64,000 nucleotides of DNA, from assembly GCF_020463795.1 (NCBI RefSeq), contig NZ_CP080025.1:995001-1059000 (forward strand), written 5' to 3'. Under the pieces are notes generated by a model. The model did not search any database and was not told the DNA's origin. It saw nothing but the letters and a program-made list of their open reading frames with translations. Shown one piece after another: positions 1 through 53,494 of the stretch. Numbering within the stretch: the stretch's first letter is position 1; each line of letters begins with the position of its first letter. Both the position numbers and the translations under genes were made by a program. Source of the DNA: Echinicola marina. GTDB lineage: Bacteria > Bacteroidota > Bacteroidia > Cytophagales > Cyclobacteriaceae.

Positions 1-2805
1 GGCCGCAGTTTCAGCATAAAGTCCAGTAGCGTTACCAAAGCCCATATCGTAGCTTATGATATCACCACCTTTTTGCATATCAATCAAGAAACTGAAAGAC
101 AAGCCTTTATAGCTAAAGGTGTTATTGATACCACCAATCCAATCAGGTTGGATATTCCCAATGATTTCATTGGTAGACTCAGTTCTCAAATATTTACCAT
201 CAGCCCCAACTACTTTTTGACCGGTTGCTTCATCATAAACATAGTCAGTACCGGTAATTGTACCATAAGGCTGTCCTTTTCTGGCATTAATGGCAGTAGA
301 CCAAGCAGAATAAATCAATAGATTCTCTCCTCCTTCATAAAGTGAAACAACCTTGTTTCTATTTCTTGCCCAGTTTACATTAACTCTCCAAGTGAAATCC
401 TGTGTTTGAACTGGTACACCAAATACGCTGGCCTCAATACCCTTGTTCTCCATTTCACCAGCATTAACATACTTGTAATTAAAACCTGTAGCCGAAGAAA
501 TTTCCGCTGGAACTATCTGATCAATGGTATTCTTCTGATAGAAAGATAGATCTGCACCCACTCTATTGTTCAAGAAGTTTACTTCCAAACCAACTTCCAT
601 TTCATTGGTTTTCTCTGGCAATAAGGCTGGATTATTATAGGTATCAGGCGTGTAGAACAATGGCACACCGTCAAATGGAGTAGCTGCGCTAAAAGTATTC
701 AACACACTATAAGGTGCCGCATCTCCACGTACACTGGCATAACCCATTCTTAATTTACCAAAGCTCAATACAGAACTTTCCATCAATTCACTGAACACAA
801 AGCTACCAGCCACAGATGGGTAGAAGTAACTATTATTTCCTTCAGGCAAAGTAGATGACTGATCAATCCTACCTGTAGCATCCAAATACAAGTAATCCAT
901 ATAACCTAGGGTTACTTGTCCATAATAACCATATTTTCTGTGGTGAGAATCATGTTCTGTTGGTGGCTCTAGCGCATTCACAGAGTTACCCAAAGAGTAA
1001 ATACCAGGGTTCACCAAACCACCATTTGTACTTGCTCTCGTCCAAATAACCTTTGTATTCCTTACATTAAAACCTAATAGACCTGTCAAAGACAATGACT
1101 CATTAAGGTTTTTATCAAATGACAGGATAAAGTCACTGTTATACTGCTCAAATGTTCTTTGGTACTTAGTGTAGCTTGACTGATCCAAACTTCCTACCGC
1201 CATGCGCTCTTCCTGAAGATCAGAATAAGAATCAATACCTACTCTACCCATGGCCTTCAACCAATCAGTAATTTCATAAGTAGCCTGGAACTTACCGAAG
1301 AACCTATTACGCTTATCATTCTGATAATTCTCATACAAAGTCCAGTAAGGGTTATCAAAGAAATAAGGGGAAGTATCACCAAAGCCGTGAGGATTCCAAG
1401 TAATATTCTTACCTGTTTGCTTATAGGCCATTTCCTGTGCTTTAAGATCAACGTTGGTACCGAACCATTGGCGCAAGCCTTGAAGTACGTTTTTACCATC
1501 ATAACCCGTACCATATCGCCCTTTACCTTCTACTCTGGTATAAGTTGCTTTACCATCGATAGTAAGACGGTCACTCAAATTATATGAAGCGTGCATATCC
1601 ACCACGTTTCTCTTCACATTACTGTTTGGGAGGACACCAGAACGATCATCGTTTGTATATCCAAAACGAACAGATCCTTTTTCATTACTACCGGATAATC
1701 CGACATTGGTGATATTTCCTACACCTGTTTGGAAAATATAATCAGGACCATTCTTAGCAGCCACCCAAGGGCTTGGCGTCATATAGGTATCTAGCTCAGG
1801 ATAGAAAGACTCCCATCCATAAACCAATAGGTCTTCATCAAAAGCAGCTCCAAAAGAAGCATCTTCACCAGCAGGAACTTCAAGATCCAATGTTCCATCA
1901 CCATTTACATCGGTATCATAAAACCCACCGGTCTCACCATAATAAGGCCCATATCCCTGACCATATTTATTTTGGTATTTAGGGAAAGTGCTTTTATCCA
2001 CCACACTGAAATTGGTAGAGTGACTTAAAGAAACTCCCATACCTTTCTTTTTACCAGCTCCTTTTTTGGTAGTAATCATGATTACACCATTTACCGCATC
2101 AGAACCGTAAAGAGCAGCTGCAGTAGCACCTTTCAAAACGGAAATAGACTCGATAGTCTCTGGGTCAATATCTGAAGCAGCATTACCATAATCATAACCT
2201 CCACTACCAATAGCTTGGTCTGTTGTATTGATATTAGAGTTACTGATCGGCACGCCGTCTACAACAAACAATGCTTGGTTATTACCAGTAAATGAGTTTG
2301 AACCTCTAATAACTGCATTAACAGATCCACCTAGGGAGTTACTTTTCTTAACACTAAGACCAGCAACTTTACCTGATAGAGAACTTATAAAACTTGATTC
2401 TTTAGCTTTGGCAATTTCATCACCTTTTACTTCCTGTACAGAATAACCAAGTGACCTTTCCTCCCTCTGGATACCCAAGGCAGTTACCACCACTTCAGAA
2501 AGTTCCTCAGCATCAGAAGCCATGGCCACATCAACGATCGATCTGCCCTCGATAGCTACGTTCTGAGTAGTCATTCCTATAAATGAGAAGATCAATACTT
2601 CTCCATTTTCTGGTAAATCTAACATGTATTTACCATCCAAATCCGTGACCGTACCCTTGGAGGTACCTTTCACGAGAATACTTACACCTGGGATCGGCTC
2701 TCCATTATCTGCTGAAGTAACCGTCCCTTTTACTGATGATGTCTGTGCAAAAGAATATTGCAAAAACATACATAGCAAGAGGGCTAATTGTACACTTTTC
2801 TTCAT
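1..2805 (-). CDS. SusC/RagA-family TonB-dependent outer-membrane receptor (3' end cut by window)
   Basis: About 935 residues are visible from the ATG at 2803-2805; the frame stays open to base 1, so the C-terminal strands and stop lie outside. The protein starts with a signal peptide (MKKSVQLALLL, Ala-Gln cleavage near residue 21), then a carboxypeptidase-regulatory-like domain (about 25-110), the SusC-type linker ELSEVVVTALGI with REERSLGYS, a plug domain and the barrel. The SusC family imports glycans or peptides with a lid lipoprotein, SusD, powered by TonB. Its own SusD would lie beyond base 1. It is clearly paralogous to the receptor at 5155-8424, most strongly over the first 110 residues, including the bases just before the start. 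The substrate cannot be read from the sequence. Confidence 0.95.
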   Translation of the reverse strand, partial: MKKSVQLALLLCMFLQYSFAQTSSVKGTVTSADNGEPIPGVSILVKGTSKGTVTDLDGKYMLDLPENGEVLIFSFIGMTTQNVAIEGRSIVDVAMASDAEELSEVVVTALGIQREERSLGYSVQEVKGDEIAKAKESSFISSLSGKVAGLSVKKSNSLGGSVNAVIRGSNSFTGNNQALFVVDGVPISNSNINTTDQAIGSGGYDYGNAASDIDPETIESISVLKGATAAALYGSDAVNGVIMITTKKGAGKKKGMGVSLSHSTNFSVVDKSTFPKYQNKYGQGYGPYYGETGGFYDTDVNGDGTLDLEVPAGEDASFGAAFDEDLLVYGWESFYPELDTYMTPSPWVAAKNGPDYIFQTGVGNITNVGLSGSNEKGSVRFGYTNDDRSGVLPNSNVKRNVVDMHASYNLSDRLTIDGKATYTRVEGKGRYGTGYDGKNVLQGLRQWFGTNVDLKAQEMAYKQTGKNITWNPHGFGDTSPYFFDNPYWTLYENYQNDKRNRFFGKFQATYEITDWLKAMGRVGIDSYSDLQEERMAVGSLDQSSYTKYQRTFEQYNSDFILSFDKNLNESLSLTGLLGFNVRNTKVIWTRASTNGGLVNPGIYSLGNSVNALEPPTEHDSHHRKYGYYGQVTLGYMDYLYLDATGRIDQSSTLPEGNNSYFYPSVAGSFVFSELMESSVLSFGKLRMGYASVRGDAAPYSVLNTFSAATPFDGVPLFYTPDTYNNPALLPEKTNEMEVGLEVNFLNNRVGADLSFYQKNTIDQIVPAEISSATGFNYKYVNAGEMENKGIEASVFGVPVQTQDFTWRVNVNWARNRNKVVSLYEGGENLLIYSAWSTAINARKGQPYGTITGTDYVYDEATGQKVVGADGKYLRTESTNEIIGNIQPDWIGGINNTFSYKGLSFSFLIDMQKGGDIISYDMGFGNATGLYAETAA

Positions 2806-3574
2806 ATGCGGTTGATTTGATTTTGATGCAAAGTATACAGCCTCATCAAAAAAAAAAACTTTAAGAATTTTTAACATAAAAATAACACTAGGAAACTAAT
2901 CATCAACCATCTGGTTTTCAGCTATTTAAGTGAGTAAATATTTTTTCAAAAAAAATTGACCTATTTCAATATACCATATGACTATTGCAACAGACCAAAC
3001 CAACATAAAAACTCACTTATCACCATATATTTAGAGCACATATTTCAATTTCACCTAATTTAATTACACTTTGAACATAAAAACTAAATTTTAATTCCAA
3101 AGTTTCCAGTTTATAATTTTGTACTGACTAATCAATTAAAAGTTTCATTCTAAGCCCATATTACCACCCATCAAATTCAGAATTTTATTTTGTTTTTGAC
3201 GATTTTTTAAAATCTACACATTTTATTTAAACACTTACAAATTCGTAAAAAATAAAGCCTTTTGATTAGCAAAATCTCCCAAAAAAGTAATGGTATTCAA
3301 AGTTTTTACATGGATACCTATCAAATTATTTGAATTCTCTATTTTTCATTATTCTAGAATAATTCAAATTCACGGTATTAAAATCCAATATTTAAACCAA
3401 GGGCATAATTGATTTTGCGCTTAGATCTATAGAACACTTCTAAAAGCCCTTTTTATTCAGAAAACTTTTAAGTAAGCCATCTAAAACCATATCTTACTAA
3501 TAACAGGTTTTCATTAATATAGCCATCCGCCGTCGCGGATGGCTATAAATAAATCTCCTATTTTTTTAAATCAC
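2806..3574. other. AT-rich intergenic region between SusD and the truncated SusC
   Basis: A gene-free stretch of about 770 bases, very AT-rich. Apart from the hairpin at 3519-3546 I see no coding frame or RNA gene. It should hold the promoter of the truncated SusC near 2806-2900, but I cannot assign a clean TAnnTTTG box; the closest string, TATACTTTG on the minus strand near 2832-2840, has one extra spacer base. Confidence 0.5.
3519..3546 (-). terminator. Strong hairpin downstream of SusD
   Basis: Perfect 12-bp inverted repeat: ATAGCCATCCGC (3519-3530), 4-base loop, GCGGATGGCTAT (3535-3546). It lies 28 bases after the susD stop. On the minus strand no long T-run follows, so it may be a factor-independent terminator of poor form or a 3'-end stabilising hairpin. 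Confidence 0.6.
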
Positions 3575-50769: not shown

Positions 50770-50782
50770 TGCTGTTTTTGCT

Positions 50783-50805
50783 ATTCAGGATTTGTAATCC
50801 CGAAT
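50783..50805. repeat. Solitary hybrid REP palindrome (copy 0)
   Basis: A 23-base imperfect palindrome with left arm ATTCAGGATT and right arm AATCCCGAAT. The left arm matches unit A and the right arm unit C of the clusters at 52055 and 52769, so it looks like an A/C recombinant that lost unit B. The remaining bases to 51069 hold no other feature I can name. Confidence 0.7.
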
Positions 50806-51069: not shown

Positions 51070-51990
51070 ATGAAATTTCGAATAATAATAACCATTTTAC
51101 TTCTCCCCCTTTCCTTACAGGTATTTGGACAGAACAGCAAACCTAAAAATGAAGACATTCCTCCTACTATTTTGTGGAAAATAACTGGAAAAGACATAAA
51201 TCAAACATCATATCTACTTGGAATACACCATTTAGTAAGTGCTAATTGGTTATATAATTTCCCAGAAATTAAGTATGCAATTGAAAATTCAGATTATTTG
51301 CTGACAGAGCTTTATGGCGAAAATATTGATACTACTCCACTCCCCGAAAATAACATCAAAGCATTGGATATTCTTACACCTGAGGAATTCAATATACTTG
51401 ATTCTTTTTTTATTGCCCGTGTAGGAGAAGGAATTGTTGATAACGAAGTGGCAGAGGAGATGAATGTATTTGATATGTGTAGCGGAATCCTCTCCACATT
51501 AATGACATCTACTGAGAGTAAAGAGTTACCTAGCATGGATAGAGAATTATTTTCAATTTTTCAGCATCAGGGTAAGCCAACATATCGTATGGACAAAATA
51601 GAATATCATGCTATAGGTATAAATGATACTGCGAGAGCACGAGAAGTAATCAAGCCAATGATAGAACTTGCCAAATTAGGCAGCCTTTCTGCATTAGATT
51701 TAGAAGATACTGTGGACACTCAAGGGTTAGTTCATATAATAAAAACTTACAAGAAAATGACTTTTAAATATAAACTGGAAGAAGCAGATCCACAGGAAAA
51801 GTCGCTAATCTCTAGACTTAGTGTAAAAGAAAGAAACCGACTGTGGCTACCAACCATTGTAGATAAAATCTCTAAATATGATTGTTTAGTTGCTGTAGGA
51901 GCATATCACTTGCTCTATAACACAGGTTTGATCTCTCATCTTCGTGCTAAAGGGTACACAGTGGAAGCAATTGCATTGAGAAAGGAATAA
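51070..51990 (+). CDS. TraB/GumN-family exported protein
   Basis: 306 residues. Signal peptide IIITILLLPLSLQVFGQ. TraB/PrgY/GumN features: SYLLGIHHLVS near the start, the Glu-rich middle, and VAVGAYHLLYNTGLISHLRAKGYTVEAI at the end. The family is a tiki-like metalloprotease clan with a G-x-x-H motif; activity is unproven for bacterial members. The base composition looks more AT-rich than neighbouring purH, and the gene lies between two REP copies (50783 and 52055), so it may have been gained with the accessory patch. Confidence 0.85.
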   Translation: MKFRIIITILLLPLSLQVFGQNSKPKNEDIPPTILWKITGKDINQTSYLLGIHHLVSANWLYNFPEIKYAIENSDYLLTELYGENIDTTPLPENNIKALDILTPEEFNILDSFFIARVGEGIVDNEVAEEMNVFDMCSGILSTLMTSTESKELPSMDRELFSIFQHQGKPTYRMDKIEYHAIGINDTARAREVIKPMIELAKLGSLSALDLEDTVDTQGLVHIIKTYKKMTFKYKLEEADPQEKSLISRLSVKERNRLWLPTIVDKISKYDCLVAVGAYHLLYNTGLISHLRAKGYTVEAIALRKE

Positions 51991-52054
51991 CTTTCATCTT
52001 GAAATATCTAAGACAGTAATTCACAAAACCTATTGCTTCACTGGAATACCTGCT

Positions 52055-52136
52055 GTTCAGGATTTGTAATCCTGAACTATAAATAGGGAGGATTTGAAAT
52101 CCTCATCATCTAGATTCGGGATTGCAAATCCCAAAT
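52055..52136. repeat. REP cluster copy 1, three palindromes A-B-C
   Basis: Unit A (52055-52077, arms GTTCAGGATT/AATCCTGAAC), unit B (52088-52104, GAGGATTTGAAATCCTC), unit C (52114-52136, ATTCGGGATT then AAATCCCAAAT). Total 82 bases, spacers of 10 and 9. It is 91 bases upstream of the transposase ATG. Confidence 0.9.
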
Positions 52137-52226
52137 AACCCCAAAATCCCTACCAACTTATAGTTACTAAGCTATAATTTACTTAATTTAAGATTGTTTA
52201 TATTTTTCAGCTAACACTTTTTAGGT

Positions 52227-52754
52227 ATGGCTTTTACGTATAAAATCAGAGATCAATATGGAATTTACTTTGTGACATTTACAGTCAAGCAGTGGGTAGA
52301 TGTTTTTTCGCGCAAAGTATATACAAACCTTCTTATTGAGAGTATAAAACATTGTCAAAAACATAAGGGATTATTGGTTTATGCCTATGTCATCATGACC
52401 AACCATTGCCATCTTATAGTTGGAAGTAAAAAGGAACCGTTAAGTGATATTATAAGGGATTTGAAAAAATACACGGCAAAAAGCATTATCAAAGCCATTG
52501 AAGAAAACCCTCATGAAAGCAGAAAAAACTGGTTATTATGGCTATTGAAAAAGGACAATGGTATCTGGTTCTGGAAAGAGGGCTATCATGGTGAAGAAAT
52601 CACTTCCCAATATTTCCTTGACACCAAAATCCGCTATATTCATCAAAATCCTGTAAAAGCAGGGATTGTCGAAAAAGAAGAAGAATACTTGCTGAGTAGT
52701 TGTGGTGAATTCTATGGAATCAGAAAATGTCCCATAGAACTCGCTCCATTATAG
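52227..52754 (+). CDS. REP-associated tyrosine transposase (RAYT, Y1_Tnp)
   Basis: 175 residues. HUH motif as HCH (His60, His62) in VIMTNHCHLIVGS, catalytic Tyr82 in DLKKYTAKSI, and the C-terminal YIHQNPVKAGIVEKEEEYLLSS that is standard for RAYTs. These enzymes make single-strand nicks at short palindromes and are thought to spread REP elements; they are single-copy genes and not classical insertion sequences. Direct copies of the same 82-base palindrome cluster lie on both sides (52055-52136 and 52769-52850), just what a RAYT-REP unit predicts. The gene is intact. Confidence 0.93.
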   Translation: MAFTYKIRDQYGIYFVTFTVKQWVDVFSRKVYTNLLIESIKHCQKHKGLLVYAYVIMTNHCHLIVGSKKEPLSDIIRDLKKYTAKSIIKAIEENPHESRKNWLLWLLKKDNGIWFWKEGYHGEEITSQYFLDTKIRYIHQNPVKAGIVEKEEEYLLSSCGEFYGIRKCPIELAPL

Positions 52755-52768
52755 TTTAATTGTTTGCT

Positions 52769-52850
52769 GTTCAGGATTTGCAATCCTGAACTAGAGATAA
52801 AGAGGATTTGAAATCCTCATCATTTAGATTCGGGATTTGTAATCCCGAAT
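52769..52850. repeat. REP cluster copy 2, three palindromes A-B-C
   Basis: Unit A (52769-52791), unit B (52802-52818, identical to copy 1) and unit C (52828-52850, arms ATTCGGGATT/AATCCCGAAT, the most perfect of the set). Same length (82), order and orientation as copy 1; it starts 15 bases after the transposase stop. Confidence 0.9.
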
Positions 52851-53077
52851 AGCTAAGTCTCTTTCTTTATAACAAGCCTCTGGCGGTCCACTTGGTATCT
52901 TTTCATACCTACCTCACCAAAGGCAAAGGCCTGTCCATAATATTAAGAAACTACAACGACCCTTCATCCTCTCAGTAATATCCCTAGGACAGATCGGTTG
53001 CTCCGCTTATATTTCTTTGGCTTAAACTAGCATTTCTCCCAAATTATCTTCGGAATTAACTCGGTATTTTCCGAGCT

Positions 53078-53121
53078 TGATCCGAAGGTGATCCGAGAGT
53101 GATCCATGAGTGATCCGAATA
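53078..53121. repeat. Tandem repeat, 11 bp x 4
   Basis: Four units of TGATCCGAGAG-type sequence (53078, 53089, 53100, 53111), each 11 bases with one or two changes. Confidence 0.75.
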
Positions 53122-53233
53122 TTATTCTGTTTTCCCTTAAATAAGGATGAAGCCACATTAAGGACATTGTACACTGAAATAAGTAGGAATGCCTGAATAA
53201 AAGCAAAGGGGACAGCGCTATCGAACAGAAAAA

Positions 53234-53303
53234 GCAATCCTGAACTTTAAATAGGGAGGATTTGAAATCCTCCACAATCCTATTCGGGATTTTAAATCCC
53301 AAA
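53234..53303. repeat. REP cluster copy 3, truncated on the left
   Basis: Right half of unit A (GCAATCCTGAAC, 53234-53245), complete unit B (53256-53272) and unit C (53281-53303). Same order and spacer lengths as copies 1 and 2; the left arm of A is missing. Confidence 0.85.
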
Positions 53304-53494
53304 TAGCCATATTGTGATCATTTTGGACTGCTTTTTGCTTCATCAGCCCGAGCCGTATATTGAAATTCAAATAATCACCAGAAAACGCGCATTTCAGTAC
53401 AGAAAATGTCTTTTATTATAAAGGTGTTTTCTTTCTCACTGCAAGTGATTTGAAAAAAAATTGTGCTCAAGATTATAAATCCAAATTAAGGTAA

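Follow-up and report, generated by a model that had tools for sequence, protein, structure and literature searches.

A chromosomal RAYT (TnpAREP) gene of Echinicola marina lies between two repeats of a common design, and we consider it likely that gene and repeat belong together, the two-hairpin repeat being the predicted target of the enzyme. The anatomy of the repeat, its association with RAYT genes in related genomes, the covariation of its stem, its intergenic position and the existence of sites that hold the repeat and lack the gene are set out below. RAYTs of this kind are known; the repeat type is resolved here for a branch that the accounts cited describe mainly by its lack of a GTAG foot. 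The same design of two hairpins, a fixed tip and a GCT foot recurs beside many related Bacteroidota genes and gives this little-described branch a readable target.

A RAYT gene between two direct repeats

The features of the window, by which we mean the whole 64,000-nucleotide stretch that was analysed, are as follows (window coordinates).

50780–50805, plus strand: GCT foot and lone hairpin (left arm of A, right arm of C); model match of 40.6 bits, hairpin at 50783–50805
52052–52139, no strand assigned: REPIN 1, consisting of GCT foot, A (hairpin 1, plus), B (shared hairpin 2) and C (hairpin 1, minus); model matches on both strands with an 18-nt overlap, 64.2 and 55.9 bits
52055–52077, plus strand: palindrome A, copy 1; perfect 10-bp stem, 3-nt loop
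52088–52104, no strand assigned: palindrome B, copy 1 (hairpin 2, common to both units); from the model match and the sequence letters
52114–52136, minus strand: palindrome C, copy 1; from the sequence letters
52227–52754, plus strand: RAYT (TnpAREP-like) gene; open frame of 175 aa, Y1_Tnp profile, NCBIfam NF047646 above cut-off, fold match 4er8
Within the 175-aa protein: HUH motif N59-H60-C61-H62 and presumed nucleophile Y137 in YIHQNP
52766–52853, no strand assigned: REPIN 2, consisting of GCT foot, A, B, C and AGC; model matches on both strands with an 18-nt overlap, 67.1 and 52.8 bits
52769–52791, plus strand: palindrome A, copy 2; perfect 10-bp stem, 3-nt loop
52802–52818, no strand assigned: palindrome B, copy 2 (hairpin 2); from the model match and the sequence letters
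52828–52850, minus strand: palindrome C, copy 2 (tip reads as plus strand); perfect 10-bp stem, 3-nt loop
53214–53310, no strand assigned: damaged third REPIN, with truncated A, then B and C; model matches of 43.3 bits (minus) and 21.2 bits (plus)

The original prediction of an intact HUH transposase of 175 residues, belonging to the RAYTs, was borne out. The frame is open, the product matches the Y1_Tnp profile (E = 2.1e-8) and scores 104.5 bits against NCBIfam NF047646 (REP-associated tyrosine transposase; cut-off 80), while the IS200 profile yields 24.3 bits against a cut-off of 55. An AF2 model built on 66 sequences (pLDDT 93.5) has as its best fold match in the PDB 4er8, the structure of E. 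coli TnpAREP with a REP hairpin (E = 2.4e-8, 18% identity); ISDra2 and further transposases of IS200 type come next, and 4er8 is also ranked first by profile search (E = 3.3e-6). The protein carries a Y1 HUH domain with a Y...NP signature, in which N59, H60, H62, Y137, N141 and P142 are invariant across all 66 aligned homologues, and the residue at the middle HUH position is C in 32 of them, I in 19, V in 10 and L in 2. This alignment comprises the window protein, locus L042, 10 of 15 distant loci and 54 of the 69 stop-free loci among the 80 described below, 11 loci with stops or unread codons having been left out.

The host genome is a single contig of 5.69 Mb and contains one intact RAYT gene, besides which only diverged fragments occur, so its copy number is low. 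Fragments of more distant RAYT relatives lie at C1:1904633 and C1:1912173–1912687. A homologue from E. shivajiensis is 95% identical to the window protein and lies in a locus that matches the one in G009, a genome of the same genus. For the gene, dN/dS is 0.05 in the comparison of G000 with G009 and 0.07 in that of G000 with G007 (0.002–0.007 for mreB), which indicates past purifying selection; one stop interrupts the G007 copy.

The two direct copies predicted around the gene are indeed both 82 nt long (52055–52136 and 52769–52850) and identical at 72 of 82 positions, with A, B and C arranged and oriented alike; a repeat finder lengthens them to 87 nt at 89% identity. Only four perfect hairpins with a stem of at least 10 bp and a 3-nt loop occur in the window, and three of these are A of copy 1, A of copy 2 and C of copy 2, which argues that the hairpins did not arise by chance. 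The sameness claimed for the copies does not extend to the tip of C, which is TTGCAAA in the first copy and TTTGTAA in the second, and the prediction of two clusters omitted the damaged third cluster at 53214–53310 and the lone A/C-chimera hairpin at 50783–50805. On the C side, the foot of REPIN 1 is AAC in place of AGC. Compared with REPIN 1, with the copy at C1:1875574 and with the C palindromes in G009, G001 and REPIN 1 of G007, the C tip of REPIN 2 (52828–52850) is inverted; an in-place flip of the hairpin is one possible cause.

The repeat unit and its inverted dimers

The repeat unit is bipartite: a 5'-GCT foot precedes hairpin 1, whose tip reads ATTTGYAAT, and hairpin 2, which is smaller, follows after a short spacer. 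In a scan of strand-oriented loci for hairpins with a 3-nt loop, in which spurious matches from an N run in locus L123 (79) were excluded from the counts, ATTTG[CT]AAT was the dominant tip near the genes, with 115 occurrences in the 92 kb within 600 bp versus 20 in the 291 kb farther off, and hairpins with this tip were found within 600 bp in 41 of 80 loci. At 170 distinct tip-oriented sites, which were not chosen for GCT, the foot is G in 81%, C in 71% and T in 88%; the foot GT[AG]G was seen neither at these sites nor in the window copies, and no GTAG or CGTC tag was seen in the unit. Among 159 hairpins with at least six stem pairs, GCT precedes 115, a second hairpin follows 124 and both are present in 99. 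The loop of the second hairpin lies 22–25 nt past the tip of hairpin 1, and the spacer between the two carries a conserved AT. The flanks of the 170 tip-oriented sites gave no readable guide–target pairing or cleavage dinucleotide.

Hairpin 1 has a stem with compensatory changes: among 63 aligned units, 11 of its 16 pairs vary on both sides, and the covariation score of 0.373 compares with 0.117 in shuffled alignments (0 of 500) and with no more than 0.097 in slid ones. These 63 units, from 32 loci, are those of the 99 with GCT and hairpin 2 that remained once near-duplicates had been left out, a choice that inflates pairing and partly builds in the invariance of GCT there. The core GGATTTGNAATCC, which the original prediction took to be shared by all three palindromes, is not constant as such across relatives; what stays constant is the tip ATTTGYAAT together with the GCT foot, while the stems vary. 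As a definition of the repeat, GGATTNNNAATCC (33 matches in the genome versus 7 for a reversed-pattern control) was dropped, since several of the 33 looked unrelated by their flanks and units with other stems were missed.

In the window, A and B make up one unit on the plus strand, C and B make up another on the minus strand, and the 18-nt overlap of the two is the shared hairpin B. The direct copies are therefore two REPIN-like inverted dimers, each with two inverted REP units a short distance apart. The predicted palindromes A, B and C are all present, but the cluster pairs two inverted copies of a two-hairpin unit and is not a row of three equal REPs, a reading that was dropped after tip-oriented alignment. 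The same 18-nt overlap occurs in nine plus–minus pairs among the at least 47 matches in the host genome (E <= 0.01) and at the mreB site of G009, G001 and G007. In G010 and G006 two units stand tail to tail and hairpin 2 is not shared, and among the 300 listed matches of the 80 loci sharing was found twice, placed in L069 from the coordinates.

Association with RAYT genes in related genomes

Of 118 related genomes, 75 yielded RAYT homologues, and a covariance model of the unit was run over 80 loci, the best 80 of 533; all figures are from 300 listed matches out of 347. Among the matches listed, a unit lies within 700 bp of the RAYT gene in 72 of the 80 loci, on both sides in 59, whereas purH or mreB occurs in the fetched flank of only one, which upholds the predicted link between RAYT and repeat. 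Loci that gave no row to the model behave likewise (40 of 48 with a unit within 700 bp, among the matches listed). Overall, 255 of the 300 listed matches fall in the 107 kb within 700 bp of the gene and 41 in the 418 kb beyond 1 kb, the nearer zone also being richer in intergenic DNA. The nearest units are on the plus strand upstream and the minus strand downstream of the gene in 46 of 59 loci, and eight of the 80 have no unit near the gene, again among the matches listed.

Of 69 genomes surveyed, nine have a close RAYT (57% identity or more over nearly the full length), and all nine contain units; of the 60 others, 23 do (Fisher p = 0.0005; outside the genus 5 of 5 versus 16 of 53, p = 0.004; kinship ignored). 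As 82 candidates per genome were scored, these counts are lower bounds. With units in at least 23 of the 60 genomes without a close RAYT, and with units also flanking both the degraded, more distant RAYT of the host genome and one of 15 distant loci, the link to this exact RAYT clade is not exclusive; this second RAYT of the host genome (L021, C1:1903500–1914000) is in fragments of 41–47% identity with one stop and adjoining model matches.

Among 15 more distant RAYT loci (43–54% identity), one had a unit match. Several distant loci show other tips, e.g. AGTCT-NN-AGACT or GTTTGCAAC, and in L055, L058, L061, L063, L065 and L066 more distant RAYTs are flanked by such other-tip palindromes, e.g. 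AGTCT-NN-AGACT, which are perhaps further repeat types of the same family. Read by eye, tip type seems to track protein clade, though not in every case.

Distribution in the host genome and the genus

The palindromes are not confined to the window, an outcome that leaves the predicted link of RAYT and REP standing: scoring 150 of 2766 candidates gave at least 47 matches of the unit model in the host genome at E <= 0.01, two sites being matched twice. The best 30 of these all lie outside ORFs of at least 110 aa, where 36% of the bases lie, although some of the 30 adjoin each other and are not independent. Matches are thus dispersed in intergenic DNA, but close copies of the flanking type are few, making current activity doubtful. 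Most dispersed matches have stems unlike those at the RAYT gene, and a close copy with all three palindromes was seen at just one other place (C1:1875502–1875597).

The GCT-hairpin pattern GCTNNTCNNNATTTGYAATNNNGA has 18 matches in the host genome and matches in 10 of 11 Echinicola genomes, while its reversed-pattern control has none in any of the 11. In G010, 39 of 43 pattern matches start with GCTGTTCG, a type also found beside that genome's own RAYT, and this predominance fits a more recent spread there. Units also occur beside an ORF reading as superoxide dismutase (by eye) in G000, G001 and G009, and the corresponding loci of the other eight Echinicola genomes have no unit at E <= 1.

The interval between purH and mreB, in which the window's gene lies, varies among the 11 genomes. 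It holds REPIN, RAYT and REPIN in four (G000, G009, G007 and G010), whereas G006 has one REPIN and G001 one REPIN plus a degraded second one, the gene being absent from both; sites with a REPIN and no gene thus exist within the genus. Of lesser remains, there is a single unit in G002, half a REPIN in G003 (one weak match), a remnant hairpin in G008 and traces in G004 (the last two by eye), and nothing recognisable of REPIN or RAYT is left in the interval of G005. In a three-gene tree, presence and absence of the RAYT gene split three sister pairs (support 1.0, 0.94 and 0.76, the G000–G001 pair having 0.757). A definite repeat target would also allow gain and loss to be studied in Echinicola, whose species carry at this one site the RAYT flanked by REPINs, a solitary REPIN or only traces.

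Comparison with described RAYT and REP systems

The closest published group is subclass 2.6 of Quentin et al. 2018 (PMC6006769), which equals RAYT group 5 of Bertels, is mostly from Bacteroidetes and has a median length of 179. Its flanks are described there as having "atypical secondary structures" that need manual inspection, are without GT[AG]G and recur in the genome, and its listed motifs are NH[LIV]H, WQ and YIH[QN]NP. The window protein resembles this group in its length (175), in YIH[QN]NP, in flanking structures without GT[AG]G and in copies elsewhere in the genome, but has NHCH for NH[LIV]H and FWK for WQ; judged by its letters, it would lie near subclass 2.6, agreeing with it in YIHQNP and differing in two of the three motifs listed in that account. 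RAYTs of Bacteroidota, little described according to the original prediction, are not undescribed. Relative to the structures reported there, the one found here can be read in detail, as a unit of two hairpins that has a GCT foot and a constant tip. No printed consensus for this repeat was found among the article texts searched in one open-access library; supplementary tables may list such repeats (e.g. Table S1 of PMC6006769).

The E. coli TnpAREP REPtron (4er8; PMC8266576) shares the fold and the arrangement of a low-copy gene flanked by palindromes that are also intergenic. Its REPs, however, have an essential GTAG foot and a bulged stem by that account, in place of the GCT foot, perfect stem and second hairpin seen here. 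The Group 3 REPtron of Stenotrophomonas maltophilia is similar in its short perfect palindrome and 3-nt loop and unlike in its GTAG foot and single hairpin (PMC8266576). Both enzymes are reported to cut GTAG REPs in vitro, and for that of S. maltophilia a loop base is decisive (PMC8266576), a precedent for reading of the tip. REPINs and head-to-head REP dimers (PMC3733652) likewise have two inverted units with their feet outside (GCT...AGC here), and some published dimers have structured spacers; in this lineage, by comparison, the inner structure is a constant second hairpin common to both units. Elements of the IS200/IS605 family (IS608, ISDra2) have the Y1 HUH transposase fold and hairpins on both sides, but the Y...NP signature, the single intact gene in the genome and the sub-threshold IS200 profile set the present system apart.

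Alternative explanations

An insertion sequence of IS200/IS605 type, moving as one piece with the hairpins as its ends, is an improbable account of the gene and its flanks. The Y1 HUH fold is common to the ISDra2 and IS608 transposases, units face the gene from both sides in most relatives, and the location of the gene varies between genera, as the single locus with purH or mreB indicates; yet the IS200 profile falls far under its cut-off, the signature is Y...NP and not the Y...Q given for such enzymes in PMC6006769, one intact copy and diverged fragments stand where several near-identical copies would be expected, and the same site is kept in four Echinicola genomes. A reading of the hairpins as transcription terminators, or as structures that stabilise mRNA close to the ends of genes, with no functional tie to the transposase, appears highly improbable. 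The intergenic position of the best 30 matches would suit such a role and one palindrome (C1:2436467–2436505) looks terminator-like, but the enrichment beside RAYT genes (among the matches listed), the constancy of tip and foot while the stems change and the terminator-like hairpin that purH already has of its own all speak against it.

A further question concerns the pattern in Echinicola, for which repeated loss of the RAYT gene is the simplest reading, perhaps by recombination between REPINs, since presence and absence splitting three sister pairs can be explained by loss in few steps. With RAYT and REPIN still cognate, the gene, together with a REPIN, could instead have inserted repeatedly into an existing REPIN, or the interval could have passed between species. 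The dS between G000 and G007 is 0.46 for the RAYT gene and 1.40 for mreB, a difference that leaves room for transfer of the interval, and a REPIN or traces of one are found at the site in most species without the gene. Such a history nevertheless seems rather unlikely, as it requires several independent arrivals at one site, and two to three losses also explain the three split pairs (with support of only 0.757 for G000–G001).

A possible mechanism

The flanking repeat is probably the element that the RAYT recognises, its constant tip likely serving as recognition element and the GCT foot as guide element. Its fold and motifs suggest an enzyme that would bind single-stranded DNA in folded form, cleave it by way of Tyr137 and join it again; most likely it would bind the folded unit on exposed single-stranded DNA, reading tip and foot, and would cut near the unit. 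In the past it may have spread units to intergenic sites in this way, the RAYT gene itself remaining at one site under purifying selection, and the direct REPINs around the gene would allow its loss, leaving a lone REPIN behind.

More tentatively, a branch of Bacteroidota RAYTs may recognise a bipartite REP via the tip ATTTGYAAT and a GCT guide, with the hairpins held by the two subunits of a dimer, while REPINs would fuse via the shared hairpin 2 and act like miniature long terminal repeats, a lone REPIN being what is left after gene loss. A target defined by foot, tip, second hairpin, spacing and orientation would permit automatic annotation of such repeats and make it possible to examine directly how DNA that lacks GTAG is read by a RAYT.

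Other features of the repeat-bearing loci

At C1:5379500–5387000 (L022), repeated unit pairs about 233 bp apart flank a transposase-like ORF (2040–3569 of this locus) and are also found near sugar-nucleotide genes (named by eye). Within the window, an ORF of the TraB/PrgY/gumN family (51070–51990) sits between the lone chimera hairpin and REPIN 1 and is absent from the purH–mreB interval of the other 10 Echinicola genomes. A run of approximately 11-bp repeats around GTGATCCGA occupies 53070–53124 and is also present in the G001 interval. The block TGGACT[GA][CT]TTTTTGCT upstream of mreB (53584) is kept, as judged by eye, in 10 of the 11 Echinicola intervals, the exception being G005.
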